Shown here: in pieces, positions 4,177-47,911 of the stretch
Layout: the number at the start of each line of letters is the position of its first letter
How positions within the stretch are numbered: position 1 is the stretch's first letter
Assembly: GCA_003833135.1 (NCBI GenBank)
Contig: QZLH01000115.1
Span: 11,580 to 75,579 of the forward strand
DNA from: Oehlia diaphana
Lineage: Eukaryota; Glomeromycota; Glomeromycetes; Glomerales; Glomeraceae
DNA: 64,000 nucleotides
Direction: 5' to 3'
Notes under the pieces: model-generated
Told to the model about the DNA's origin: nothing
Databases searched by the model: none
Seen by the model: the letters and a program-made list of their open reading frames with translations, nothing else
Made by a program: the position numbers and the translations under genes

Positions 4177-7100
4177 TTACCCGGGTTGTGTCTGAGGATT
4201 TTTTACGTATATGTAGATATACGTGATAAACGTTTTTAGCGAGATGTATAATAGAATTTGCAATAGTGTATATAGGCATGTAACCAAATGACACAACTTG
4301 ATTCAAATAAAAAGACTATTAAAAAATAAAATAAAATTTAATGATTGGTTTAGTAAAAAAAAAAAATGTTAATGCAAAAATAATTTACATACCTGAATAA
4401 ATATTGTAGAAATATCTTCAATGAAAATATTAGTGATCTCACCCAAAAATAAACTATTTTTTGCTGCATCAGATAATACAACATTGAAATTAACAAGCAA
4501 TTCTAAATGTGTGACATCAACTCCTGCTAATATCGTGAATATTATAACAATTTTTTGACTGTATTTATAATCTCTTAACCATCTTGAAAATTTCTGATAT
4601 TTCCGATTTTTTTCTATCTCTTCCATCTTCCCTCCGAGTTTCTCTTGAAGTCTACTAAACATTTTCTTAGCTCCTTCCCATATACTACATTTTCTTCTAT
4701 CATTTTCTTCATTATTTTCTTCTTTCGATTCTTCTTCTAATTCTTCTTTAATGCTTTCAAGTTTTTCTAATTTTTCTAATTCCTTTTTAAAGCTCTCAAG
4801 TTTTTTTAATTCGCTTATAAGTTTAAGTTCTTTTTCGCTCGTCGTGAGTTCATTTTCGCCCGTCGTAGGTTCTTTTTCGCTCGTCGTGAGTTCATTTTCG
4901 CTCGTCAGAAGTTTTTTTATAAGGCCTACAGCATTCTTTAGCTGCTCCTTGAGTTTTTTAACTTCATTTAATTCTTCCATTATAAGATCACGTAATTCAT
5001 TTGCAAATATTTTGTCAATTCCTTCATTAACTTTTGAATCTTTTTCGTTATCTTCTATCGATTTTTTTTCGTCAACGATAATTTCAATTTTATTCAATTC
5101 AAATAATTTCCGAAGTTCACCTAAATGTCTATTAACGTCTACTAATTGTTCTATAAAATCTTCAACTTGCGTTGAATCTTTTATATTTTCGTTAGTCGCT
5201 AATTTTTTCATGGTGGCTTTTACATCAACTGGATCCTCTATTAATATTTTATTAATATCTTTCAATTTTTCCGTGAGATCGCTAACCTCTTCTTTAATTT
5301 TTATTAATTCTTCTCTAGTTTCTCTTGTGAGATTCTTAACATATACTTTGCGATCGTTATCTTCTCCTGTAAAATTGTCTTTTTTTATCAAGTCATTAAG
5401 TTTTTTAATGTTTTCTATTAATTTTTGGATGTCATGTCCCATAAGTTCATTTATTACAACATAAAATGCAAATCCCAAATTTACGATAAACGGAAATGTC
5501 ACAAAGAAAAGACTAGAAGAAAAAAAGTGAGGGAAAGGGAAGAGAATTAATCAGTATTTGGAAAATATATACATATATATAATTATATATAACTTTTTAT
5601 TTTTACTTTTAAGGGTTTTTTTTTACCTTGTGGTGAAAATATTTTCCACGCTACGCGCATCTATGCTTGTAAAAAGAATTGTCGTCACAAATTTTGCAAT
5701 AGCGTTGCCACATGAATAAATTGCAAATGATTTACGCTAAAAACAAAAGAAAAAAGGTAGAGTTTTCATTTGTCAGTATTCAATTAAAAAAATTAAATAA
5801 TAATCTTAATAATATTAATATTAAATGTATATATATTTACCAATAAAGCAAGTATCAATAATATAAAATTCAATGCAATTGTTCCAAGGATATTACCCAA
5901 GTTTTCTTCTAACCACCTGGCTATTTTCATAAAAGAAAAAAAATATTATTTAGTTATTTGAGATGAAATCCTTTATCCGAAAAAAAAAATGGATTATTAC
6001 GTATGGGTTCATATCCATATTCTTCATCTAAATAATTTGTATATACTCCAGAACCAATAACAGTAATTAGTTTATATTTTATTAAAGTATTTAAATCACT
6101 AGCGACCAAATTAACAGATCTGCTGTCATCTGAATTCTTAGCTCTTTTAATATTAATAGATAAAATGTATTGTTCAGGTGAAACGGAAGTATCAATTTCA
6201 TGTCTTTCATTTGTAGTTATTCGTTCCGGACCAACAGGGACTGCTTTGGCCAATTCTTGTGTTAAATTATCAAAAAATTCTTTAACTTTAATTTTATCAT
6301 GTTTGAAACTTTTGAAATAAGTGGTTCCTTCTGCAGTCAATCGAACTTTTCCGTCAATACTGGATTCGTTTAATTTTGTTTTAAAATAATTTGAAATACT
6401 TTTTTGTGTAACTTCTTGTTGAGCTATTATGAAGAAAAAAGGAATTTTATTTTATGTACATGCAACATCATTTTCATTTTAAATAAGATAAACACTTACT
6501 TGTATTAAAATTCCAAGCATTATCTTGTAAACCAATGATAGGTTCTTGAAGATCTTTACTCTCTACAAAACCATCATCAATTAAAACATAGTACTTTGTA
6601 TTAGGCTGATTAAAAGTACTATCAATCACTTTGATTTCAATGGTATAATCATCAATAAGTTTTACGAAATCTCCATTATCGTTGCTTACAGAAGTAATTT
6701 GACGTATAATACCACCATCTTGTAAAATCGTAACGTTACGATAAGGTGACAAACTAACTTTACTATAAAATTGAATTCTAAGGGATTCAATTCCAGATGG
6801 ATCTATAGTATCACCAATGATCGGAGTTGTGTTGAAGATATGTAAATTTCCGTAACCATGATCTAGTAACATTTTAAAAGTTTTTATAAGTTAAAAAAAA
6901 AAATTTTTTTTTACGATAGATATTATTTCTCGTTCATATCACCTTACCACGTGCACCCTCGATCTTATACAAATCAGTGGTAATCAAACCCCAAGTTTGT
7001 CCAGATTCCGGTCGAGGAATGGCGAGAGTATTATTTGGTAAAACTAAAAAATCACCAGCAAAATTTGTTATAGTAGGATATGATATGTTCCAATTATAAT

Positions 7101-8383
7101 GGTTACTATTGTCATCCAAAATATAACCATAAAGATTAAGTTTAGTCATATCATTTGGAAATGGTGCTGTACTATATAAGAGATAACCTCCATAATTTAA
7201 CTGCATAATGCCAAAATCAGTAAGATCAGCAGGGTTTTGAAAAGTAGTAATATTATATACAGTTCCCGTTGAAAGAAAATCAATTTTAATAAACGTATTT
7301 TGATTTATTGCTGGGGCAATGTTTAAAACCAGTATACAAGTTTGACCAAATCCCACTTTAGTAAAATCACAATCAAGTAAAATTATTTTTGATACCGGAT
7401 TTGGAGTTTGATAAAGAACAAATGGACCTTGCGGTTCTGGATTTCCATTTTGTAAAAAAAAGCCATGGATCGATATATATGGAGCAAAGGAGGTTATTGT
7501 TGACGGCGTAAAATCAGGATAAATAATCGCGTATCCTCCGTCCATTGTTGCAACTGTTTCGACTGGTAAAGCCGTATAATTCATATAAGTTTTTGCAAGA
7601 AGTTGAACTTCCCCATTTTCGTTTCTTATAAAAGAAGAAATATTCATATTAAAATTATTAAAATTAATTTTCGTAAATTAAAATATAATACATATAATAC
7701 TTACACTTTGAATTGTTGCAAGATCATAGAATTAGTACCAGGTATGGGCGCAGTACGAAGAAATCCATTATCTCTATGGACATTTAGTCTGATAGAATCT
7801 TGGGCGGGCAACCATTCGTTAGTAATAGTATTAACAAAGGATGCACCTAACCAAATTTTACTATAAAAGAAGTGGAATAATAATCTTTATTATTTATGCT
7901 CAAATGAATAAAAAGGTTAATTTATATTTTACATATATACCTTTTAATTACTCCGTCTAAGTCGATAATCATTCCCCAATCATTATAAGTGTAATTATTG
8001 TTCACATCTTCAGCTTCCGCGTAAGTTAAAAACAAAAAATTTTTTTTTACAGGGTAAAATCTAAGAGGGTTAAATTTTGAAAGAAGACAAAAATTGAAAG
8101 GTTGTATATTTAAAGTATCTGCTGAAAGATCAAATCCTTTAACAGTTCCATTGGGATAAATTGTGCGAATTGATAAGTTTTCCTCCAGACAAAATTTGGG
8201 AGGAGCTGTGTAGTTTAAACGAACTATTCGAACGACTATCGTGCCATCATCATAATAATTTGTATTTAACACGCGAGGAGTTGAAGGGGTTTCAGGTGTT
8301 GGTTCTTCAACTATAATGGATGATTTTATTGGTAATATCGCCAATAAAATAATTGATAAAAAAAAAATAAAATATAACCTCAT
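4177..8383 (-). CDS. Large secretory-pathway membrane protein with coiled coil (copy A)
   Basis: Predicted 1163-residue protein, exons (minus strand) 8383-7941, 7860-7705, 7624-6948, 6862-6500, 6423-6001, 5920-5841, 5736-5627, 5512-4393, 4296-4177. It starts with a clear signal peptide (MRLYFIFFLSIILLAILP), then about 540 residues of beta-rich ectodomain with many N-x-S/T sites. Next is a compact domain at about 547-687 containing EGTTYFKSFKHDKIKV, in a position suggestive of a SEA-like membrane-proximal module. A transmembrane segment follows near 693-714, a second near 752-775 (FVTFPFIVNLGFAFYVV), then about 280 residues of Glu/Lys coiled coil, and a last hydrophobic segment near 1070 (KIVIIFTILAGVDVTH). 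Exon 5 must splice at ATAC|GTAATA, because reading on gives a stop. The paralogue at 20,516-25,229 has identical exon phases. I do not recognise a named family; a cell-surface receptor or adhesion role is only inferred. The secreted-protein gene lies head-to-head 1.4 kb upstream. Confidence 0.8.
4831..4912 (-). repeat. 21-bp coding repeats in coiled-coil exon (copy A)
   Basis: About four 21-bp units encode seven-residue repeats of the type ELTTSEK/EPTTGEN inside exon 8 of copy A. The heptad length keeps a coiled-coil register. Copy B has its own, different 21-bp repeat array in the same exon. Confidence 0.75.
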
Positions 8384-9643
8384 CTTGAAAAAGTTGTATT
8401 TACTTTAGAGAGACGAATTGTTTTTTTTTAAAAAAAAGCTTAAAAGTTAAAGAGAAAAGAAAACAAGACATAAATTTTTAGAAATTTATCGAACATGACT
8501 TTTTTATTTGTCTAAAGATATCACTTTTTTTTATTTCTTTTTTCATTCGTTTATTACACAACTAACTTGTTTTTTTATTATATTGTTGTAGTTTTTTTTT
8601 CAACCAATTACCAAAATTTTCGTATAGAATTTAACCTTGTTCGATTTTTTAATAATTATTATGGTAGCGGAAGAGTAATAAAAAGTGATTTAAAATATTT
8701 AAAAAGAGTTAGACTTTGTTTGATGCATAAAAAAAAATGAAATTGAAAGATATTTTTTCTATTAAAATAAACAAAATAAGGTTAGTGACGTTATTTTATT
8801 TATTATTCGGAGTTTTTCCCGAAAGTTCTTTCAAAGAGATCTTTTTTATTGTGATTATCAATAATGTGATATGAATTTTTTGATTATGCACTCATGTATT
8901 TTCAATGAACGAACAAATTTCACTGTTCAGTAGCGAGGATTTCATTAGCTATCGGTGTATCGTATGTATAACAAGGGCAAAAATAATCAATGACATTTGA
9001 TTGTATTACTTCTTTAAGGAAACATTGTGATTGACATTCCGGGTCAATCTGTGCATATTACATCATTAACATTACCTTTTTAATCGTTGCATTCCTTTTT
9101 TCCTTATATATATAAGATGGGATCTAACTTCTTTTAGGTTTTTAAACAAATCAATGAAACTCTTTATCACGTGTATCTTTTTAATACTAAAATGCTGTAT
9201 ATACATATATAAAATATTTATATTATCATTCGGTGATGTTTATTTCCTTAATTGTTTACTTTTTATACTTTATATGCAAAATAATAAGTATGCATGAATA
9301 AATTCATTTCTGATTTATGTAAACACAATCATACAACATATTCAATAATGATTCTTGTTTTTTTAGCGTTAAATTTATATATAGATTTTACTAATAAACT
9401 TATTACAAAAGATGAAAATGTTAAAATTTTATGGTTCATAACAAACTCCGATAAGGAACTTTAAAATAAAATTGTTTAAAATATCGAAGAAATTAGAAAG
9501 TTTCAATAACTTATGCAATGTAATATATTTATGTAACATTTTTATATTTTTAAATTTTACGTATTTTTAGATCAAGAACAAAAGAAAAGTATTAATCAAA
9601 TTACTTATTATTTGACTAATATAAATTCTTTTCTTGTGAGAAA
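8384..9643. other. Shared divergent intergenic region (unit A)
   Basis: Separates the membrane-protein gene from the secreted-protein gene. Several stretches match the corresponding region of unit B (for example near 9228-9370 against 26,480-26,610). No further gene is seen. It presumably holds both promoters. Confidence 0.55.
8421..8437 (-). promoter_or_regulatory. T/A switch upstream of copy A start
   Basis: T9A8 tract 38 bp upstream of the ATG. A similar tract lies 36 bp upstream of the paralogue's ATG, suggesting a core promoter or 5' UTR element. Confidence 0.4.
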
Positions 9644-9653
9644 TATAAAAAGG
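9644..9653 (+). promoter_or_regulatory. TATA-like box of secreted-protein gene A
   Basis: TATAAAAAGG, 123 bp before the ATG. The same TATAAAAAGGG lies upstream of the paralogue at 27,042, with a shared CACCCTTCC/ACCCTTCTTCC motif just downstream. Confidence 0.6.
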
Positions 9654-9742
9654 GTGGATTTCTACCCTTCTTCCATTCCTCATCGAATACAATATTCGAA
9701 ATAAAAAGAATTAATATCAAAAGAAAACAATTAATTTTTCCC

Positions 9743-9759
9743 TTTTTTTTAAAAAAAAA
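9743..9759 (+). promoter_or_regulatory. T/A switch before secreted-protein gene A
   Basis: T8A9 tract ending 7 bp before the ATG; conserved in the paralogue. Confidence 0.4.
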
Positions 9760-9766
9760 CTAAAAC

Positions 9767-10291
9767 ATGACAATGAAATACTTTACGTTTTTGACCTTGT
9801 TTATTCTTTTATCTTACGTTACTATTTCGTCAGCTTTTCCAAGTAGTAATGAACTATCTAATACGCTTGAAAAACGAAATCAATGCAGTTGCTCTGTCGC
9901 CGCCGCAGATTTCAATTCTGGTCCGGTTATAGGTTACGTATTCTTTGCCCAAGACGAAAATGGTCACACTGAAGTCGCAGGAATCTTTAACAAAGGTTTT
10001 GATGATACAAACGCGTCTTACGGATTTAAAATTATTGATGAGTGCAAAAATACACTTTTCGATCTCACGGATGGATTAAATATAAAACCAAATGGTCGTG
10101 GCGGTACCAAATCTTTCAGACATAAGTTTACAAATATGAGTATTGACTGTGACGACAATGGTATTCTCACCAAAAAAATTCACCATAATAAACGTAATTG
10201 TCATAGCAATAAACTTAGGAAACGTCTTCCTAATGGTGCAATGACCACTCAGGATGGTGAAGGCTCTGGTTACTCTGGAATATCGAAATAA
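9767..10291 (+). CDS. Small secreted protein, Kex2-processed (copy A)
   Basis: Intronless, 174 residues; the second ATG at 9773 aligns better with the paralogue's start and may be the true one. A signal peptide (KYFTFLTLFILLSYVTISSA) is followed by a short propeptide ending in KR, a Kex2-type site. The core (about residues 40-130) has the alternating pattern GYVFFAQDENGHTEVAGIF then YGFKIIDEC. This recalls the Cu/Zn superoxide dismutase beta-barrel, but the metal-binding histidines are absent. Four cysteines in the core are shared with copy B. A second dibasic run (KLRKR) would release a 21-residue C-terminal peptide beginning LPNG and containing GEGSGYSG. It is 53% or so identical to the copy at 27,196 by eye. 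Function unknown; an apoplastic or symbiosis-related role is inference only. Confidence 0.85.
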   Translation: MTMKYFTFLTLFILLSYVTISSAFPSSNELSNTLEKRNQCSCSVAAADFNSGPVIGYVFFAQDENGHTEVAGIFNKGFDDTNASYGFKIIDECKNTLFDLTDGLNIKPNGRGGTKSFRHKFTNMSIDCDDNGILTKKIHHNKRNCHSNKLRKRLPNGAMTTQDGEGSGYSGISK

Positions 10292-20515: not shown

Positions 20516-23500
20516 CTACAGTAGAATTGTTGGGATTACACGGGTTGGTGGATTTATTACGTTTATATTGATATATGTGATGTGAGTTAGTACCGAGATG
20601 TATAACAGATTTTGCAATGGTGTATATAGGCGTGTAACCAAATGATACAACTTGAGACAAATAAAAACACTATTAAAAAAATAAAATAAAAATTCATTGA
20701 TTGGTTTAATAAAAGATAAAAAATTAATGCAAAAATTCAAAAATAATTTACATACCTGAATAAATATTGCAGAAAGATCTTCAATGAAAATATTAATGAC
20801 ATCACCCCAAAATAAACCATTTTCTGCTGCATGGGATAATTTGGCGTTAAAATTAATGTCAACATTTCGAGTTTCAAGACCACAATAATTAAGGCCTGGA
20901 ATTCTAATTCGTAATGTTGATCCAAGCAATTCTAAATGTGAAATATCAACTCCTGCTAATATCGTGAATATTACTATAATTGTTTGATTATCTTTATAAT
21001 CTCTTAGCCATTTTGAAATTTTTCGATATTTTTTTTCCGCCGGCTGATCTTTTTCTATCACTTTTGCGAGTGTCTCTTCATAATTGAAGATTTTACTACT
21101 CAATGTCTTAACATAGTCAAACATACTATTCCTATTATTTCCTGTCCCTTTTTCCAATTCTTCTCTTTCTTTTTCCAATTCTTCTCTTTTTCTTTCCAAT
21201 TCCTCTCTTTCTTTTTCCAATTCTTGAATGCTAGGTTTTTCTAATTCTTTTTTAAAGCTGTTAAGTTCTTCTAATTGGCTTATAAGTTCTTTTTGGCTTG
21301 GATCTTTTTCTTTTAATTTATTCATAATGTCTACAGCTATCTTTAATTGTTCCTTTAGTTCTTCAACTTCTTTGAAATCTTTCATAAGATCATTAAGTCT
21401 AGATAATTCTTTTTTAAATTCACTGACAATTCCTTCATTAACTTTTGAATCATCCTTGTTATCTACTTCCGATTCTTTTTCGCTAACGATAACTACTTTC
21501 AATTGTGTATCATTAATTTCATTCAATTCTTTTAATAATTTCTCAAGTTCAACTAAATGGTTACTAACGTCTACCAATTCTTCGGTAAAATCTTCAACTT
21601 GCGTTAAATCTTTTATATGTTCGTTAATTCCCACCAATATTTTCTTGGTGGCGGTGTCTTTTACATCATCAACTGGAATCTTTAATGTTTCATTAACCTC
21701 ATTCAAATTTTCCGAGAGTTCACTAACTTCTGTCTTCTCTTCAATTTTTATCTTTAATGTTTCATTAACCTCATTCAAATTTTCCGAGAGTTCACTAACT
21801 TCTGTCAACTCTTCTTTAATTTTTATCTTTAATGTTTCATTAACCACTTTCAAATTTCCCGAGAGTTCACTAACTTCTGTCAACTCTTCTTTAATTTTTA
21901 TTAATTCGCTTCTAGTTTCTCTTATTATTTTTGTAAGTTTCTTAACTTTTTCTTCGTGACCGTCACCTTTTATTGATCTTTTTATATAGTCTCTAATTGA
22001 ATGATGATGTTTTGTAACATTGACTTTATTTAGGTTAGCCTCTGTTATATCATTGTCTTTATTTGATTTATCTTCTGTATCATTGGCTTTATCTTCCATA
22101 TCATTGACTTTAACTTCCGTATCATTGGCTTTATCTTCCGCATCATTGACTTTATTTTCTGTAACATTGACTTTATTTTCTGCATCATTGACTTTTTTGG
22201 ATTTATTTCTTTCAATAGAATTTAATACGTCATCTTTACATTTTCTACCGTTTTCCACTAATTTTCCTAAGTCATGTCTCAAAAGTTCATCAAATACAAT
22301 TTTAAATGCAAATCCCAAATTGACGATAAACGGAAATGTTACAAAGAAAAGACTAGAAGAAAGAAATAATGAGGGAAAGAAAAGATAATAATAAATTAGT
22401 ATTTTTTTTTTTTAAAAAAAAAAAAATAAAATAAATAAATAAATTTATTTTTATTTCTTTTAATTTTTTTTTTTTTACCTTGCAGTAAAAATATTTTCAA
22501 CGCTCTCCGCATCTACGCTAGTAAAAAGAATTGTCGACACAAATTTTTCAATAGCGTTGCCACATGTATAAATTGCAAATGTTTTGTTCTAAAAAAAAAA
22601 GGGAAAAGTTAAAAAAAAAAATTTTTTTCTAATTTTTTTTTGTCAATATTACATAACATATTAATATTTATATGAATATTTACCCAATAAGCAATGAACA
22701 ATAATCCGATATTTAATGCAATTGTTCCAAGAAGACTACCCAAATTTTCTTCTATCCACCTGGCTATTTTTATAAAAAAAAAAAAAAAAAAATTTTTAAT
22801 TATTTGATATGAAATCCTTTATCCGAAGAAAAAAAAAAAATTGGATTCTTACGTATGGGTTCATATCCATAATCTTTATCTAAATAATTTGAATACTCTC
22901 CGGTACCAATAACAGTAATAAGTTTATTTCTTATTAAAGTATCTAAATCACTAGATATCGAATTAACAGTTCTGTCATCTTTATTCTTAGCTTTTTTAAT
23001 ATTAATAGATAAGATATATTGTTCGGGTGAAGCGGAAGTATCAATTTCATGTCTGTAATTTGTAGTTATTCGTTCCGGACCAATAGGGACTGCTTTGGCC
23101 AATTCATGCGTTAAATTATCAAAAAATTCTCTAACTTTAATTTTGTCATGTTTAAAACTTTTGAAATAAGTGGTTCCTTCCGGACCCAATCGAACTTTTC
23201 CGTCAATGCTAGATGCGTTTACTTTCTTTTTATAATAATTTGTTAAACCACTGTTTTGTGCAACATCTTCTTGAGCTATTATGAAAAAAAAAAATAAGAA
23301 TTTTATTTTAAATATTATATTCATTTTAAATAAGGTAAAGAACTTACCCGTAATAAAACTCCAAGAATCATCTTGTAAACCAATGATAGGTTCTTTAAGA
23401 TCTTTACTCTCTACAAAACCATCATCAATTAAAACATAATACTTTGTATTAGGCTGATTAAAAGTACTATCAATCACTTTGATTTCAATGGTATAATCAT

Positions 23501-25229
23501 CAATAGGTTTTACAAAATCTCCATTATCGTCGCTTACAGAAGTAATTTGACGTACAATACCACCATCTTGTAAGATCGTAACGTTACGATAAGGTGATAA
23601 ATTAACTTTATTATAAAATTTAATTGTAAGGGTTCCGATATTAGATGGGTCTATAATATCATTAATGTTCGGAATTGTGCTGGAGATATGTAAATTTCCA
23701 TAACCATGATCTAATAATAATTTAAAAATTTATACAAACAAGTTAAAAATTTTTTTATACGATATATATTATTTCTCGTTCGATCACCTTACCACGTGCA
23801 CCCTCGATCTTATACAAATCAGTGGTGAGCAATCTCCAAGTTTGTCCAGTTTCCACTTGAGGAATTACGAGAGTATTATTTGGTAAAATTAAAACATCAC
23901 CAGCAAAATTTGTTGGAGTAGGGTATGATATATTCCAATCATAACGTTTACTTTGTTCATCCAAAATATAACCATAAAGATTTTTTAAAGCCCTATTATT
24001 TGGATTTGTTGCTGTACTAAATAAGAAATAACCTCCATAATCTAATGACACAATAGAAAAATCAGTAAGATCTGCAGGGTTTTGAAAAATCGTAACATTA
24101 TATACAGTTCCCGTTGAAAGAAAATCAATTTTAATAAACGTATTTTGATCTACTATTTGACCTATTGCTGGTGCAAGGTTTAAAACCAGTATACAAGTTT
24201 GACCATATCCCACTTTAGTAAAATCACAATCAAGTAATATAATTTTTGACACAGGATTTGAAGTTTGATAAAGAACAAATGGGCCTTGCGGTTCTGGATT
24301 TCCATTTTGTAAAAAAAAGCCACGGATCGACATATATGGAGCTAAAGGGATTGTTGTTACCGGTGAAAAATGAGGATAAATAACCGCGTACCCTCCGTCC
24401 ATTGTTGCAACTATTTCGGTTGGAGTAGCCGTATAATTTATATAAGTTTCTGCAAGAAGTTGAATTTCTCCATTTTCATTTCTTATAAAGGAAATATATA
24501 TATATATTAAATTATACATTAAAATTAATTTTTGTAAAATATAATACTTACACCTTGAATTGTTGCAAGACTATAGAATTAGTACCAGTTACAGGCAAAC
24601 CACGAATAAATCCATTATCACGATGAACATTTAATATAATAGATTCACGGCCGGGTATCCACTCGTTAGTAGTTGAATTAACATAAGATGGACTCAATCT
24701 AGTTTTACTATAAAAAAGCGGAATAAATAATTATTTTTATTATTTATGTACACATATATATTTAAAAAGTTAATTAACATATATACTTTTTAATTATTCC
24801 ATTTAAATCAATAGTCATTCCCCAATCATTATAAGTATAAGGATTGTTTTCATCCTCAGCTATTGTGTAAGTTATTAATAAAAGATTGGCTCTTACAGGA
24901 TAGAATCTAATAGGGTTGGCTCTTGCAAGAAGACAAAAATTGAAAGGCTGTATTCCTAAGGTATTTGCTGAAAGATCAAATCCTTTAACAGTTCCATTTG
25001 GATAAACTGTACGAATTGTTAAGTTTTCTTCCACACAAAGTTTGGGAGGAGCTGTATAGTTTAAACGAACTGTTCGAAGGACTATCGTGCCATCATCAAA
25101 ACAATTTGTATTTAACACGCGAGGAGTTGAAGGAATTACAGGTTGTGGTTCTTCAAATGAAATGGATGATTTTACTGGTAATATCAACAATAAAATAATT
25201 GATAAAAGAAAAATAAAAAGTAACTTCAT
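20516..25229 (-). CDS. Large secretory-pathway membrane protein with coiled coil (copy B)
   Basis: Predicted 1331 residues, exons (minus strand) 25229-24787, 24707-24552, 24481-23793, 23710-23348, 23275-22853, 22763-22684, 22588-22479, 22352-20756, 20650-20516. Six of the nine exons have the same length as in copy A; exons 3, 8 and 9 differ by multiples of three plus the same phase. The order is signal peptide (MKLLFIFLLSIILLLILP), ectodomain with N-glycosylation sites, the EGTTYFKSFKHDKIKV domain, transmembrane segments, long coiled coil and a C-terminal hydrophobic region (TIIVIFTILAGVDISHLELL). The splice ATAC|GTAAGA after exon 5 is stronger than in copy A and avoids an in-frame stop. Exon 8 is 477 nt longer than in A, through two repeat expansions. 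The last intron (105 nt) is in frame and open, so retention would give a variant C-terminus. Function unknown; paired head-to-head with the secreted-protein gene. Confidence 0.8.
21670..21905 (-). repeat. About 25-residue coding repeats, three units
   Basis: Three successive units of the form IKEELTEVSELSENLNEVNE lie in exon 8 of copy B (about 75 bp each). Copy A has only a single, diverged equivalent. They extend the coiled coil. Confidence 0.7.
22070..22195 (-). repeat. Six 21-bp coding repeats (KVNDAEN type)
   Basis: Six tandem 7-residue units, KVNDAEN, KVNVTEN, KVNDAED, KANDTEV, KVNDMED, KANDTED, encoded by exactly 126 bp. They lie just after the second transmembrane segment of copy B. 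Absent from copy A at this position. Confidence 0.85.
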
Positions 25230-25264
25230 TTTGAAAAAGTTGAAATTAATTTTTTAGAGATGAA

Positions 25265-25286
25265 TTTTTTTTTTAAAAAAAAAAAA
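25265..25286 (-). promoter_or_regulatory. T/A switch upstream of copy B start
   Basis: T10A12 tract starting 36 bp from the ATG, in the same place as in copy A. Confidence 0.4.
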
Positions 25287-27041
25287 TTAAAAGAAAAGAA
25301 AAGAAAAGAACTCAATCTTAAAAAAAAAAAAATAAAAAAGGATTATCACTGAAATCTTTTTTGTGTATATCACCAAATTCATTGAACTTATTGAACAGAA
25401 CTTTTTTAGATCTATGTTACAAAAAAAAAATAAAAAAAAAAAAGTTAGTCGTAGTAATATCATTATTTTAGTTAATATTACTGGGGTTGTTTTTTTTTAA
25501 AAAAATCCGGACTCCGAATTTTTTATAAAAAATTTCGGTTAACTTTTTTTAGATTTTTCAATCGTTTTCTTAATTTTAACATTCATTCAAACTTTTTAAT
25601 AAAACATAATATAATAAATAAATAACATCATTAAACTTAATTGTTTATTTTTTCATTTTTACCTCCATAATGACTAATAAGGAACTGAATGACCCAAAAA
25701 ATGCGGCTTTGTGAAATATTTTTTGATTGCTTCTTTCATATGTTTGGCGAAGTTTATTCTATTATGGAATCTATCGAACCTTATTGATGTACAAGGTACA
25801 GTATTTTAATTATTATGCACGATCATGATCATTTCTAATTTGGCTATTCAGTTTAATGTTTTTGGTATCATTGTAAGTATATAATTACTATTATATTTTT
25901 GTTTTACATTGTAAACAAGATTTTTCGATGTTTTTTTTTATGCATTCTTATATTATTAGTTATGTAATGAAAATGAAAATGGAGATATTGATGAGATTTT
26001 ATTTGATGAACGATATTTTTAAAATTTATAAAATCTATTTGTATCTTGGTGTATCGCACGTACTGTAACTATTTTATCTAAAAATGTTTAAATTCACGGA
26101 TCAAAAATCTCGCAAATCCGACAAAGAATCAATGAAATTGATTGTGTTACCATATACAAGTTAAAAATTATTAATTAAAATAACAAAATTGATTGTTTCA
26201 TTTAAAAAACATTTTAGATAAAACCATTTTTATCATTGTGATAGACTTTTAATTAACATGACTATTTCGGTTACAACAAAAAAATATTTTATTCATTCCA
26301 TTTTTTTTTTTTCCTTAAAAAAAAAAAATTAAAATGGGTTCTAACTTCCTTTAGATTTTTTAAAAAAAACCTCCTTTTTTTTTTTTCCTCCGAGGTTATT
26401 CCGTCTTTGATATTTTCATTAAATGACTTTTTTAATTTATACTGCATAAAAAAAAAAAAAAAATTTTGTATATACATTCGGTGATGTTTATTTTCCATTA
26501 TTGTTTATTTTTCATGCAAATTAATTTATATGAATAAAAATCATTTCTAATTTCTCTATTGTATTGTAAACACAACATATTCATCACATTCATCAATGAT
26601 TCTTTTGGTAATACCCCCTGATATTAGAAGCAAATATATTGTTCTTGTCCTGTGCGACGGGACTGACTTGATCCGCATAATATAAATTTTTATAATAAGA
26701 GATCAAATCCTAATATTAAATTCAATTTCTTTTCCTTTCTTTTTTTTTTTTTTAGATGACTGTTTTGGCTGTTTGACTAATTTGATTTAGCGTAAAATTT
26801 ATATATAGATTTTTAATCTTATTACAAAAGATAAAATTGTGAAAATTTTACGGTCCATACAATCCGATAAAAAGAAACCTTAATGAAATTGTAACCTAGA
26901 AAGTTCCAATAACACATATGCAATGTAATAGTTACCCTATTCATGCATATTTTTAAAATTTTTCACGTATTTTTAGATCAAAACAAAAGAAACAATTAAT
27001 TACTATTCGATTAATATAAATTTCTTTCTTGTGAGAAATAA
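25287..27041. other. Shared divergent intergenic region (unit B)
   Basis: Equivalent of 8,384-9,643, about 500 bp longer. Homopolymer runs are frequent. No extra gene supported. Confidence 0.5.
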
Positions 27042-27052
27042 TATAAAAAGGG
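27042..27052 (+). promoter_or_regulatory. TATA-like box of secreted-protein gene B
   Basis: TATAAAAAGGG, 154 bp before the ATG; conserved with 9,644. Confidence 0.6.
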
Positions 27053-27164
27053 TTAATTTTCCACCCTTCCTTCATTCCCCATCGAACTAAACATTCGGTT
27101 AATTTTAACGAAACAAAAAATAATAATAATATTTATAATATTTATCATTAATTTTTTCCCTTTA

Positions 27165-27183
27165 TTTTTTTTTTAAAAAAAAA
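27165..27183 (+). promoter_or_regulatory. T/A switch before secreted-protein gene B
   Basis: T10A9 tract 12 bp before the ATG, as in copy A. Confidence 0.4.
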
Positions 27184-27195
27184 CTAAATTTAAAA

Positions 27196-27705
27196 ATGAA
27201 TTACTTCACAATTTTAAGCATCTTTATTCTTTTATCTCTCATTAATATTTCATCAGCTCTTCGACTTGGGAGAAGAAATGGCGGTTGCGAATGTTCTTTT
27301 GCAATCGCTGATTTCAAATCAGGTTCAGCAAGGGGTATCGTAACCTTTTCACAGAACGAGCTTGGCCATACAGAGGTGGCCGGAATCTTTAGTAAAGGTC
27401 TTAATGATGATAATGCATCTTACGGATTCAGAATCGTTGATGAGTGCAGGAATGTACTCTTTGATCTCACGGACGGTTTGGATATAAAACCAGATGGTGA
27501 TGGTGGTAGCAAATCCTTTAGACATAAGTTCACGGAATTTGATGTTGACTGTACCAGCAATGGTATTCTTACCAAAAAAATTCACAATAGTAAACGTAAT
27601 AATGATAGTAATTGTCATAACAACAAACTTAGGAAGCGTCTTCCTAACGGTGGAGAATTAACTATAAATGGTGAAGGGTCTGATTATGCTGGATTAACTA
27701 AATAA
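27196..27705 (+). CDS. Small secreted protein, Kex2-processed (copy B)
   Basis: Intronless, 169 residues, paralogue of 9,767-10,291. The signal peptide (MNYFTILSIFILLSLINISS) is followed closely by RR. The core keeps GIVTFSQNELGHTEVAGIF, YGFRIVDEC and LFDLTDGLDIKPDG, and all four core cysteines. The C-terminal KLRKR site would free a 21-residue peptide starting LPNG and containing GEGSDYAG. Conservation of both the dibasic site and the tail across copies suggests the tail matters. Resemblance to the SOD beta-barrel without metal ligands is by eye only. Confidence 0.85.
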   Translation: MNYFTILSIFILLSLINISSALRLGRRNGGCECSFAIADFKSGSARGIVTFSQNELGHTEVAGIFSKGLNDDNASYGFRIVDECRNVLFDLTDGLDIKPDGDGGSKSFRHKFTEFDVDCTSNGILTKKIHNSKRNNDSNCHNNKLRKRLPNGGELTINGEGSDYAGLTK

Positions 27706-31585: not shown

Positions 31586-32295
31586 AATTGTAAAAATTTT
31601 AAGAGAAAATCGTCTCTCCTAGTTTTTTTTTAATTTTTCTTGCGAGTATTTTAATGGCGTAATTTTATTAGAAATTTTTGTAATCACAGAATGAAATATT
31701 GGACGCCCCACTTTTAATTATTTATAGTTAGCTTCTTTTTTGTATATAATATATAATGAACAATTCTGCAGCGATCAAAAATTATGTTATCTGATGAAGC
31801 CACAATTTCAATATTTTTACGGTCAAACGTAGTGAATTTTAGGTAAGTGTTTTTTTATAAATTATTGAAAGAATGGGAATTTACTTATTGTGATTATAAA
31901 TATAAATCATATGTTATTTACATCAAATACATGATCCGTATAATTTTAACAAAAATCGATTGTGATTATAATTACTGGTAGAAACCATAGATCATATACC
32001 TTCAGTATTATTTGAATATATAGGACTAAAAAGCATAAGTTCACAAAAATAAAATCATTTTTATGCAGTATATGGAAGGGAAGCTAGAATTCCATTGGAT
32101 ATTGGAAAGAATAAAAGTATTAATAGAAGAATAGTTTATATAAGGTTGGGCCGGTTTGAACCCGGTTTCAAACCTCATAACCAGTTGGAGCACTAAATTT
32201 ATAAATATTATATGTTATTTACATCACATTAACATATGATACGTATAATTTTTAACAAAAAGTCGGATAAAATTTTGATTACCCCTCTGTATTTC
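31586..32295. other. Shared intergenic region of RBR and ubiquitin-like genes
   Basis: Contains two approximate copies of ATATGTTATTTACATCA followed by GATACGTATAATTTT or GATCCGTATAATTTT (31,910-31,945 and 32,207-32,252), a possible shared regulatory repeat. No gene. Confidence 0.4.
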
Positions 32296-32311
32296 TTTTT
32301 TTAAAAAAAAA
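32296..32311 (+). promoter_or_regulatory. T/A switch before ubiquitin-like gene
   Basis: T7 followed by an A run reaching the ATG, as at several other starts in the window. Confidence 0.35.
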
Positions 32312-32773
32312 ATGCGTGTCAAAATTAGAGCTTTTGGGTTCAAATTTAAAATCGATGTCGATTCTCACGATAAAATTAAACAAGTCAAACATAAAATCAA
32401 AGAGGCTCACGGACCTGATGTCGATGAACAAGAATTATATCTTGGAGGTCTAAGACTTGAAAACGAAAAAACCGTGAGCGATTATAAAATTGAAGAAAAT
32501 GGAGAAATTAAACTTCTTCGAATTGTCGTTGGCGGCATTCAAATATGTATTAAGAATATTAGAGGGAAGGAAATTACTCTTCAAGTACGATCTACGTATA
32601 CTATTGAAAAAGTTAAAGAACTAATTTTTGAAAAGGAAGGGATGGAAGTAGATACGCAAAGGCTAATTTTTGGTGGTATTGATCTCTCAAACGATAAACT
32701 TTTGTCAAGTTATGGAATTGTAGAAGGAAACACTTTACATCTTGTTAGTAGATTACACGGCGGTTTCATTTAA
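32312..32773 (+). CDS. Tandem ubiquitin-like protein with two diGly ends
   Basis: Intronless, 153 residues, made of two head-to-tail ubiquitin-like domains of 75 and 76 residues plus a two-residue tail (FI), the layout of a polyubiquitin precursor. Domain 1 ends RIVVGG; domain 2 ends SRLHGG. Domain 2 is clearly ubiquitin-like (QRLIFGG, TLHLV). Aligned to ubiquitin it keeps I44, H68, V70, R72, K6, K11, K27 and K33, but lacks K29, K48 (Ile) and K63 (Glu). Domain 1 is more diverged (ELYLGGLRLENEKTVSDY) and could be NEDD8- or UBL-domain-like. If cut after each GG by a deubiquitinase it would yield two conjugatable modifiers; alternatively it acts uncut as a scaffold. It sits divergent to an RBR ligase. 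Confidence 0.88.
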   Translation: MRVKIRAFGFKFKIDVDSHDKIKQVKHKIKEAHGPDVDEQELYLGGLRLENEKTVSDYKIEENGEIKLLRIVVGGIQICIKNIRGKEITLQVRSTYTIEKVKELIFEKEGMEVDTQRLIFGGIDLSNDKLLSSYGIVEGNTLHLVSRLHGGFI

Positions 32774-46173: not shown

Positions 46174-47911
46174 TTATTCTGATTGCTTTGGTTGCTCAGA
46201 TGGTATTGATAAGTCATTTATTCCAATAAGTTCAACATCACTATTTTGATTAAGAAAAAAAAATTAATAAACTTGACAATAATATTAAATAAATGTTATA
46301 TATGTATTTTTTACTCACAATACCAAATCTGCATTAGGTGGGATCTAATTAACAGAGGATAAGATTAATTTGTAAAAATAAAAGTTTCAATGTAAATTAA
46401 AAAAATTTTTAAATAATACTCACAACAGTACCAAAGCCAGAACTACCGTATCCGTAATCTGAAGAGACGGCAAGTGTAGCCTTTTGTCCAAGACTGAGCC
46501 TAAGAATACCTTCATCCCAACCTAAATATAATTATTAATATAATTAGTTTATTATTAATAATTAATACCCTAAGTTTTATTTATTATAGCATACCTCTGA
46601 TCAATTGACCAACACCGACTTTGCAATTGAGTGGTTTATTTCGATCAATTGAAGAATCGAACTTTTGTCCCTTAGCTCTTACTTCTCCATATTCTTCTTC
46701 ATAGTTTCTAAAGTATCCATTGTCTTCATTATTAATATTAAAGAGCAAGTTAATTAGTAGAATAAATAACTGTACCACGATTAATTTAATTATTAATTAA
46801 ACTTACAATGAATAAAAATTCGATCACCCTATAAATAACAAAAGAAAAAATTATCAATCACGAAGTGAATTTCAGTGTAAGGCGAATATATATTTGCATA
46901 CCACTTTTGGAAAATTCTATTATTTCAAAAAAGAAAAGAAAAGAAAAGAAAAATTAAATTATGTTAAAAATTTTCGAACAGATCTACTAAAAGATGTCTT
47001 ACTATTCCATCACCGGGCCGAAATTCAAATTGCTTATTAAAAAAAAAAAACATTAATATTAATAGCCAAAAGAAAAGCCTTATTTTCAGAAAAAAATACG
47101 CACAAATTTCTTTTTATCTTTGTCTTTCTAAATATATTAGAAAAAAAATTAAAAAATAAAATTATTTAACAGCCAAAGAAAAACAATATTTACAGAAAGA
47201 TATACATACGGGCTTATCTTTATCGTCTTTCTAATATTTATTTGATTTTTTTTTTTAAAAAAAAAAATTTAAAAAATCAAATTATTTATTAGCCAAAGAA
47301 AAATAGTATTTACAGAAAGATATACGTACGGACTTATCTTTATCGTCTTTCTAATATTTTATTTGTTTTTTTTTTTAAAAAAAAAAAAAAATTAAAAAAT
47401 AAAATTATTTATTAGCCAAAGAAAAACAATATTTACAGAAAAATATACGTACGGGCTTATCTTTATCGTCTTTCTGATATTTCATTTGTTTTTAAATAAA
47501 TAAATAAAATTATTAATTCCATTACTAATAATCGAAACTATTATAAAAATATATACGAACATCTACTATTTTTGGAAATGCCTGAATATTTTTCAAAAAA
47601 ATAAATAAATAAATAAATAAAATTATAAACTTTATAAAAGGAAAACTGTTTCTCAGAGAAAATATATATATACGAACGTATTCAGTGGATTCTCCCTTTA
47701 TCAAAATAAATAAATAAATAAACAATATAAAAATTATTAATTTCATTATTATAAGCCAAAAACCTTTTAAATTATATACTAACGAATATAGGATGGTTTG
47801 GGTCGGATATGACTTCGACTCCCTGAAATTTTTTTTAACAAAACATTACGGTTAACTCAGTTATTCAATATATAACTGATAATACGAGAAAAAAAAAATT
47901 GTCAATACCAT
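46174..47911 (-). CDS. FKBP-type peptidyl-prolyl isomerase with microexon array
   Basis: Predicted 184 residues in 15 exons: 47911-47909 (ATG only), 47822-47784, 47695-47678, 47581-47561, 47473-47453, 47350-47330, 47230-47210, 47127-47104, 47032-47003, 46916-46902, 46828-46807, 46723-46595, 46521-46424, 46344-46319, 46240-46174. The protein begins MGVEV like FKBP12 and resumes at RPGDGI NFPK. It keeps IHY, KFDSS, DRNKP, IRGWDEG, DYGYG and VIPPNADLVFDVEL. Compared with FKBP12 residues, Y26, F36, D37, R42, I56, W59, Y82 and F99 are present, while F46 is Leu and H87 is Phe. The extra N-terminal loop is built from in-phase exons of 18-24 nt, three of them encoding KDDKDKP/S. A further insert (NYEEEYGEVRAKG) replaces the short turn before KFDSS. 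Isomerase activity and FK506 binding are plausible but untested. Every exon join preserves frame. Confidence 0.82.
47104..47473 (-). repeat. Tandem 120-bp exon-plus-intron repeats in the FKBP gene
   Basis: Units start at 47,473, 47,350 and 47,230 (spacing 123 and 120 bp), with a more diverged one at 47,127. Each contains one 21- or 24-nt exon and a full intron (AGCCAAAGAAAAA, TTTACAGAAA and a T/A tract are shared). Exons 5 and 7 are identical; exon 6 has one change (Pro to Ser). Confidence 0.85.

Follow-up and report, generated by a model that had tools for sequence, protein, structure and literature searches.

A chain of phase-0 microexons in an FKBP12-like gene of Oehlia diaphana, with apparent growth by tandem duplication of exon-intron units

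Introduction

Troponin T has a charged and variable N-terminus. Its gene TNNT3 possesses same-phase 5′ exons that are attributed to exon shuffling, and exons 4-8 are alternatively spliced (PMC2447309). In the micro-exon genes (MEGs) of schistosomes, which encode secreted proteins, numerous short exons in a row, most of them divisible by three in length, are separated by introns of 0.1-5 kb (PMC10526429). In fungi, P450 genes of Phanerochaete contain microexons of 2-10 codons together with small introns (PMC1184071). Here we describe an FKBP gene on the minus strand (positions 46174-47911) of a 64,000-nucleotide stretch of the glomeromycete Oehlia diaphana (assembly GCA_003833135.1, contig QZLH01000115.1, positions 11,580 to 75,579; hereafter the window), in which eight consecutive phase-0 exons of 15-30 nt follow exon 2, three of them within tandem repeats that also hold the adjoining intron.

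Like the schistosome MEGs, this gene contains numerous short exons in succession, most with lengths divisible by three. However, its 14 introns, all of the GT-AG type, measure only 71-102 nt, with a single one above 100 nt. The product also differs, being an FKBP12-like enzyme whose start (MGVEVISDPNH) resembles cytosolic FKBP12, with no evident signal peptide by eye, and three of the exons are part of near-identical exon-plus-intron repeats. The gene shares same-phase 5′ exons with TNNT3, which encodes a muscle protein and is alternatively spliced, and fungal microexons and small introns with the Phanerochaete P450 genes, for which the accessible part of the source describes no tandem exon-intron array (PMC1184071). 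The repeats of the SP7 effector of Rhizophagus irregularis were set aside as a parallel, since the available portion of the source reports not microexons but a conserved intron that precedes the first repeat (PMC11333574). Titles and the starts of abstracts of the papers listed yielded no description of microexons in genes of arbuscular mycorrhizal fungi, most subscription papers being outside this coverage. Compared to the known cases of small symmetric exons, the present one differs in the enzyme, the lineage, the intron size and the near-identical repetition of exon plus intron.

The protein is otherwise similar to the FKBP12/Fpr1 class, with a single FKBP_C domain, an MGV start, PGDG and FPK motifs and most, though not all, of the examined pocket residues. 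By contrast with this class, it has an additional 42-residue charged extension encoded by microexons and a loop before KFDSS that is longer by 11 residues. It comprises 184 residues against 108-116 in most of the FKBP12 rows aligned, and does not have the short, extension-free form of these proteins.

Gene structure and the microexon chain

Fifteen exons, located by script on the minus strand and separated by GT-AG introns, join into a single 555-nt frame encoding a 184-residue FKBP-type isomerase. After the start exon they measure 39 nt, then 18, 21, 21, 21, 21, 24, 30 and 15 nt, and finally 22, 129, 98, 26 and 67 nt. The eight exons directly following exon 2 (termed m1-m8) are each of phase 0-0; the initial annotation had proposed them with these sizes and positions, and both the script-located exons and their in-frame joining bear it out. 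Together m1-m8 hold 171 of the 555 coding nucleotides; with the short-exon limit of 81 nt taken from PMC10526429, symmetric exons account for 210 and exons of any phase for 325. The product carries a single FKBP_C domain (PF00254) that scores 93.2 bits against a gathering score of 21.1, and 93.8 bits once the array is left out. We consider it quite likely that the frame belongs to a live peptidyl-prolyl isomerase gene of the FKBP12 class, which, judging from the sequence, would be spliced in this way in vivo.

The chain starts with m1 (18 nt, 47678-47695, GESTEY), which has an AAAG acceptor, and m2 (21 nt, 47561-47581, AFPKIVD); the evidence for both consists of splice sites, phase and the chain test described below. 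The next three, m3 (47453-47473, KDDKDKP), m4 (47330-47350, KDDKDKS) and m5 (47210-47230, KDDKDKP), each of 21 nt, correspond to repeat copies 1, 2 and 3, as identified by Tandem Repeats Finder (TRF) and in-frame joining. They are followed by m6 (24 nt, 47104-47127, KDKDKKKF), m7 (30 nt, 47003-47032, QFEFRPGDGI), where the FKBP core begins, and m8 (15 nt, 46902-46916, NFPKV), which belongs to the core. The donor pattern GTNNGT, ascribed at first to the whole array, is present in the seven introns after exon 2 and m1-m6 (7/7), but not in those after m7 (GTAAGA) and m8 (GTATGC).

The chain m1-m6 is beyond chance. A candidate exon was defined as HAG followed by a stop-free multiple of three of 12-36 nt and then GTNNGT. 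The region from the exon 2 donor to the m7 acceptor (751 nt, GC 18%) contains exactly six such candidates, all of which fall in one full phase-0 chain, and none of 1000 dinucleotide shuffles of this region reached a six-exon chain. As three of the exons are repeat copies, the test was rerun with a single copy; upon removal of the other two, the four remaining candidates (4/4) still form a chain, compared to no full chain of any length in 5000 shuffles. A control on real DNA of the same assembly, which covered both strands of the window and of twenty 10-kb stretches (228,948 bases, N excluded), gave 198 candidates; counted by their ends, 176 chains have length one, nine have length two and one, namely m1-m6, has length six. 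Narrowing the donor to GTRNGT still left the FKBP locus with the longest chain, of four exons. Under a looser GT/NAG rule the array region has 29 candidates, so that a lone microexon means little and it is the chain that counts; a full chain of at least four was found in 0 of 1000 shuffles.

Tandem duplication of exon-intron units

Further analysis of the array revealed a tandem repeat of whole exon-intron units at 47141-47493 (period 120-123 bp; TRF, 2.9 copies, 90% match), within which the starts of the three KDDKDK exons are spaced 123 and 120 bp apart. Each copy holds the exon, its splice sites and the intron, and the units of m3-m5 are 90-93% identical across the first 60 intron bases. 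The annotation had placed the KDDKDKP/S exons in 120-bp repeats that include the entire intron; the arrangement holds, with a TRF period of 123, but the intron of copy 3 is shortened to 82 nt. Its proposal of growth by exon-unit duplication is supported by the acceptor, exon, donor and intron body that the three units have in common, and by m6 and its intron as an older relative. A comparison within the array did not show the exon copies to be better conserved than the intron copies.

Graded by similarity, m3-m5 are clear exon-plus-intron duplicates, and m6 is read as an older, diverged copy of the same unit. The introns after exon 2, m1 and m2 are more weakly similar to the unit introns than those of m3-m6; m1 and m2 may descend from the unit by even earlier copying, or may be related to it through their introns only. 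We propose that the Lys/Asp-rich extension was lengthened by tandem duplication of a full unit, consisting of an acceptor, a 21-nt exon, a donor and a short intron. The symmetry of the unit (phase 0-0) means that each added copy would contribute seven residues without a frameshift. On this reading, the three copies would be recent, m6 older, and m1 and m2 perhaps older still.

The array as an N-terminal extension of the FKBP core

The variable part of the protein is encoded by the six exons m1-m6 and comprises 42 residues (residues 15-56), of which 15 are Lys and 12 Asp, whereas m7 and m8 encode the conserved start of the FKBP. The view that gain or loss of units would leave the isomerase core untouched applies to m1-m6, but not to m7 (QFEFRPGDGI) and m8 (NFPKV), where the FKBP sequence is conserved. 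In the alignment with vertebrate FKBP12, the MGVEVET start lies opposite KKFQFE, with m1-m6 upstream, and among the best 60 of 153 matches to solved structures the best stretch starts at residue 52-62, where the array ends or past it. Based on these positions, m7 would give the usual first FKBP strand and the PGDG turn, and the array, which had been described as a protein loop, probably forms an N-terminal extension rather than a loop within the core. The Lys/Asp-rich extension is probably disordered; our guess is that it serves as a charged spacer or a partner-binding tail.

The core continues through exon 11 (22 nt, 46807-46828, GDRIFIH(Y)), placed by in-frame joining and alignment to R. irregularis, and exon 12 (129 nt, 46595-46723), placed by in-frame joining and alignment to FKBP12, in which a second insertion makes the loop after HYNGYFRN and before KFDSS 11 residues longer. 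Exon 13 (98 nt, 46424-46521) and exon 14 (26 nt, 46319-46344) also encode core, and exon 15 (67 nt, 46174-46240) encodes the C terminus and the stop, which ends at 46174; all three are based on in-frame joining, and exons 13 and 15 also on the protein search of the genome. At what we take to be the pocket positions of FKBP12, Y26, F36, D37, I56, W59, Y82, I91 and F99 are kept, and four are changed (F46L, F48C, V55L and A81G). Because most of the examined positions are kept despite these four changes, the enzyme is probably active.

Relatives in Rhizophagus irregularis

Protein search matched 370 proteins, of which the top three (P0001, P0002 and P0003) are all from R. irregularis. P0001 (RhiirB3_433719, 145 aa) shows 95% identity over 74% of the query and is the apparent ortholog of the window gene. 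Its counterparts of the 24-, 30- and 15-nt exons m6, m7 and m8 are KGKDGKKF, QFEFRPGDGI and NFPKV; two of the eight residues of m6 differ, m7 and m8 are identical, and from QFEFR onwards only 5 of 128 residues differ, the last 73 being identical. The annotated P0001 begins with MISPYVYLS, of which ISPYVYLS is obtained in the window (47217-47194) when a KDDKDKP exon and the intron after it are translated in frame +1; this read is identical from m4 and m5, and the matched copy is therefore indistinguishable. From this match, the R. irregularis gene seems to hold at least one KDDKDKP-type unit, and the annotated start of P0001 is probably misplaced, as an out-of-frame read through an array unit.

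P0002 and P0003 (161 and 157 aa) start with MGVQIITDPNDSIFG, which matches exon 2 (39 nt, 47784-47822, GVEVISDPNHPIF) in a start of the type MGVxxIxDPNxxIF; their counterpart of this exon is MGVQIITDPNDSIF. Exon 2 is further placed by in-frame joining, as is the start codon that ends exon 1 (ATG at 47909-47911, followed by a GTATTG donor), which is read from the sequence and compared with the MGVQI start of the paralog P0002. After a linker, the two proteins continue as FEFQPGD or EFQPGD, with FEFQPGD in P0002, and both have NFPKV identical to m8. P0002 shares the exon 2 start and the core of the window protein, but in place of the Lys/Asp array it has a shorter linker of 15 residues, which includes three Lys and lacks Asp and Glu. 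A search of the O. diaphana genome for a P0002-like paralog copy found none.

No Rhizophagus names other than P0001-P0003 were seen among the best 120 of 370, 7897 and 4376 matches, in which names are shortened and many rows nameless. Among the best 120 of the 370, the rows with fungal names (P0001-P0003 aside) are 50-59% identical, and the rows just below P0003 are longer, nameless proteins.

Other FKBP genes and array copies in the genome

A query of the assembly with Mortierella FKBP12 found the window gene and one other, the C55 gene, and a Pfam search gave the same two loci. The C55 gene (L017 1634-2493) has six exons, and its spliced product bears a signal-like start, MKMRQNIIILFFIAIVCLTCYFVDA, by which, judged by eye, it was taken as a secretory-type FKBP and set aside as a canonical FKBP12. 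The window gene may therefore be the sole FKBP12-like gene of the assembly, a draft of 1672 contigs with gaps that was searched exon by exon. Against this claim, a table in the accessible part of PMC8401276 gives an Fpr1 counterpart for R. irregularis and for further fungi of this kind.

Protein search of the genome for other array copies (E up to 10) gave three exon matches, all at the FKBP locus. Search with the array DNA gave 149 matches, the best at the FKBP locus; the others lie mostly at query positions ~190-253 and 310-370 and, judged by position, mostly correspond to T/A-run parts of the introns. The intron-start motif has three exact matches in the genome, each of them within the array, and a single match elsewhere that differs at one base. 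Allowing up to three mismatches, it occurs in 137 places and the reversed pattern in 86; part of this surplus is another repeated word, ATATGTATAGTTTTCTGTAAATT, present in at least six of the places listed. Neither the genome DNA search nor the motif search showed a dispersed family of array-type introns, and the motif search did not reveal near-identical introns in many unrelated genes, as would be typical of introner-like elements. No viral or prokaryotic contig matched a microexon together with its donor. The C78 locus, with two motif matches 130 bp apart, was considered as an array copy and rejected as an AT-rich tandem repeat. An AT-rich tandem repeat of 130 bp in 3.7 copies is present at L027 1331-1802 of this genome.

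Splicing mode and alternative explanations

Because the introns are short, each would most likely be recognised singly across the intron, which would explain the tolerance of exons of 15-24 nt. Short introns, together with the comparatively low exon skipping in fungi (PMC6142364), favour microexons that are mainly included constitutively; the length of the extension would then change by mutation and not by regulated splicing. Retention of seven of the eight introns after exon 2 and m1-m7 would lead to a stop within 16 codons, and the m1 intron is stop-free in frame. A 106-aa stop-free frame (47525-47845) runs through m1, its intron and m2 in the coding phase, so that retention of this intron keeps the frame.

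An isoform generator, in which microexons are included or skipped in combinations to give FKBP tails of varied length as in schistosome MEGs or troponin T, is conceivable, as exon 2 and the eight microexons are all of phase 0 and any subset keeps the frame; fungal P450 microexons have also been suggested to promote alternative splicing (PMC1184071). P0002 and P0003 differ by an exact five-residue gap (GPTKF) at the edge of the linker, as splicing variants might, but they differ elsewhere too and might represent separate genes or a choice made in annotation. Regulated skipping might leave weak donors, yet the array donors, with on average 5.29 of 9 positions matching the donor consensus, are no weaker than those elsewhere in the gene, with 5.43 (p = 0.57). 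With the low exon skipping described for fungi, this makes the generator unlikely. It is very unlikely that the array is a non-coding, 120-bp AT-rich minisatellite in a long intron, with an mRNA that skips m1-m6 or starts downstream. That reading could draw on the similar-period array at L027, on the annotated P0001 start, which falls inside the array, and on the GC content of m6, which at 17% is intron-like; however, m1-m5 have 29-44% GC against 12-26% in the introns, m6 has a counterpart in P0001 and exon 2 in P0002 and P0003, the intron skipping all six would measure 751 nt, and the outcomes of the chain tests would be hard to expect.

An introner-like origin, by repeated insertion of a mobile intron into one exon, would make the introns kin and the exons not copies. 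Introner-like elements exist in fungi (PMC4457414), and the successive introns are alike while m1, m2 and m3 are, by eye, unlike. Yet m3-m5, and partly m6, are copied in the exon as well, the exact intron-start motif is confined to the array, and the other DNA matches are, judged by position, mostly intron T/A runs; we regard this origin as highly improbable. The GTNNGT rule of the chain tests was derived from the finding itself and is biased toward the FKBP locus. As MGVEVIS resembles the start of FKBP12, a loop is conceivable, but the N-terminal extension is the simpler reading.

Other features of the window

Two blocks at 4369-10291 and 20516-27705 contain similar open frames in the same order and, by eye, look like a segmental duplication ~16-17 kb apart. 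Each holds a protein resembling a coiled coil, frames of the DHGYGNLHI/YRNVTILQDGG type with related ones, and a small protein that looks secreted and contains CSCSVAAADF or CECSFAIADF. At 21678-21901, a 75-bp repeat of three copies (94% match) lies in a 631-aa open frame without a Pfam match, a coding repeat grown without introns in the same window as the FKBP array. A 164-aa frame at 32279-32773 has two ubiquitin-like stretches (PF00240).

Implications

The extension sits in front of a conserved enzyme, and comparison with the locus indicates that one R. irregularis gene model probably begins at the wrong position. With this the sole FKBP12-like protein found and no canonical FKBP12 found in the draft, one might speculate that the protein carries a modular charged tail, which varies between isolates by unequal exchange of 120-bp units, with unit combinations set by splicing, and tunes the partners of the enzyme, for example in TOR or calcineurin pathways; we give this extended picture little credence. 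The finding raises the question of which FKBP is the rapamycin receptor in arbuscular mycorrhizal fungi. Overall, the locus appears to present a protein growing as whole units of exon plus intron are duplicated, at a stage when three copies are still 90-93% identical over the first 60 intron bases, so that the order of events can be studied. If the number of units varies among isolates, it would provide a test of the lengthening of a disordered tail.
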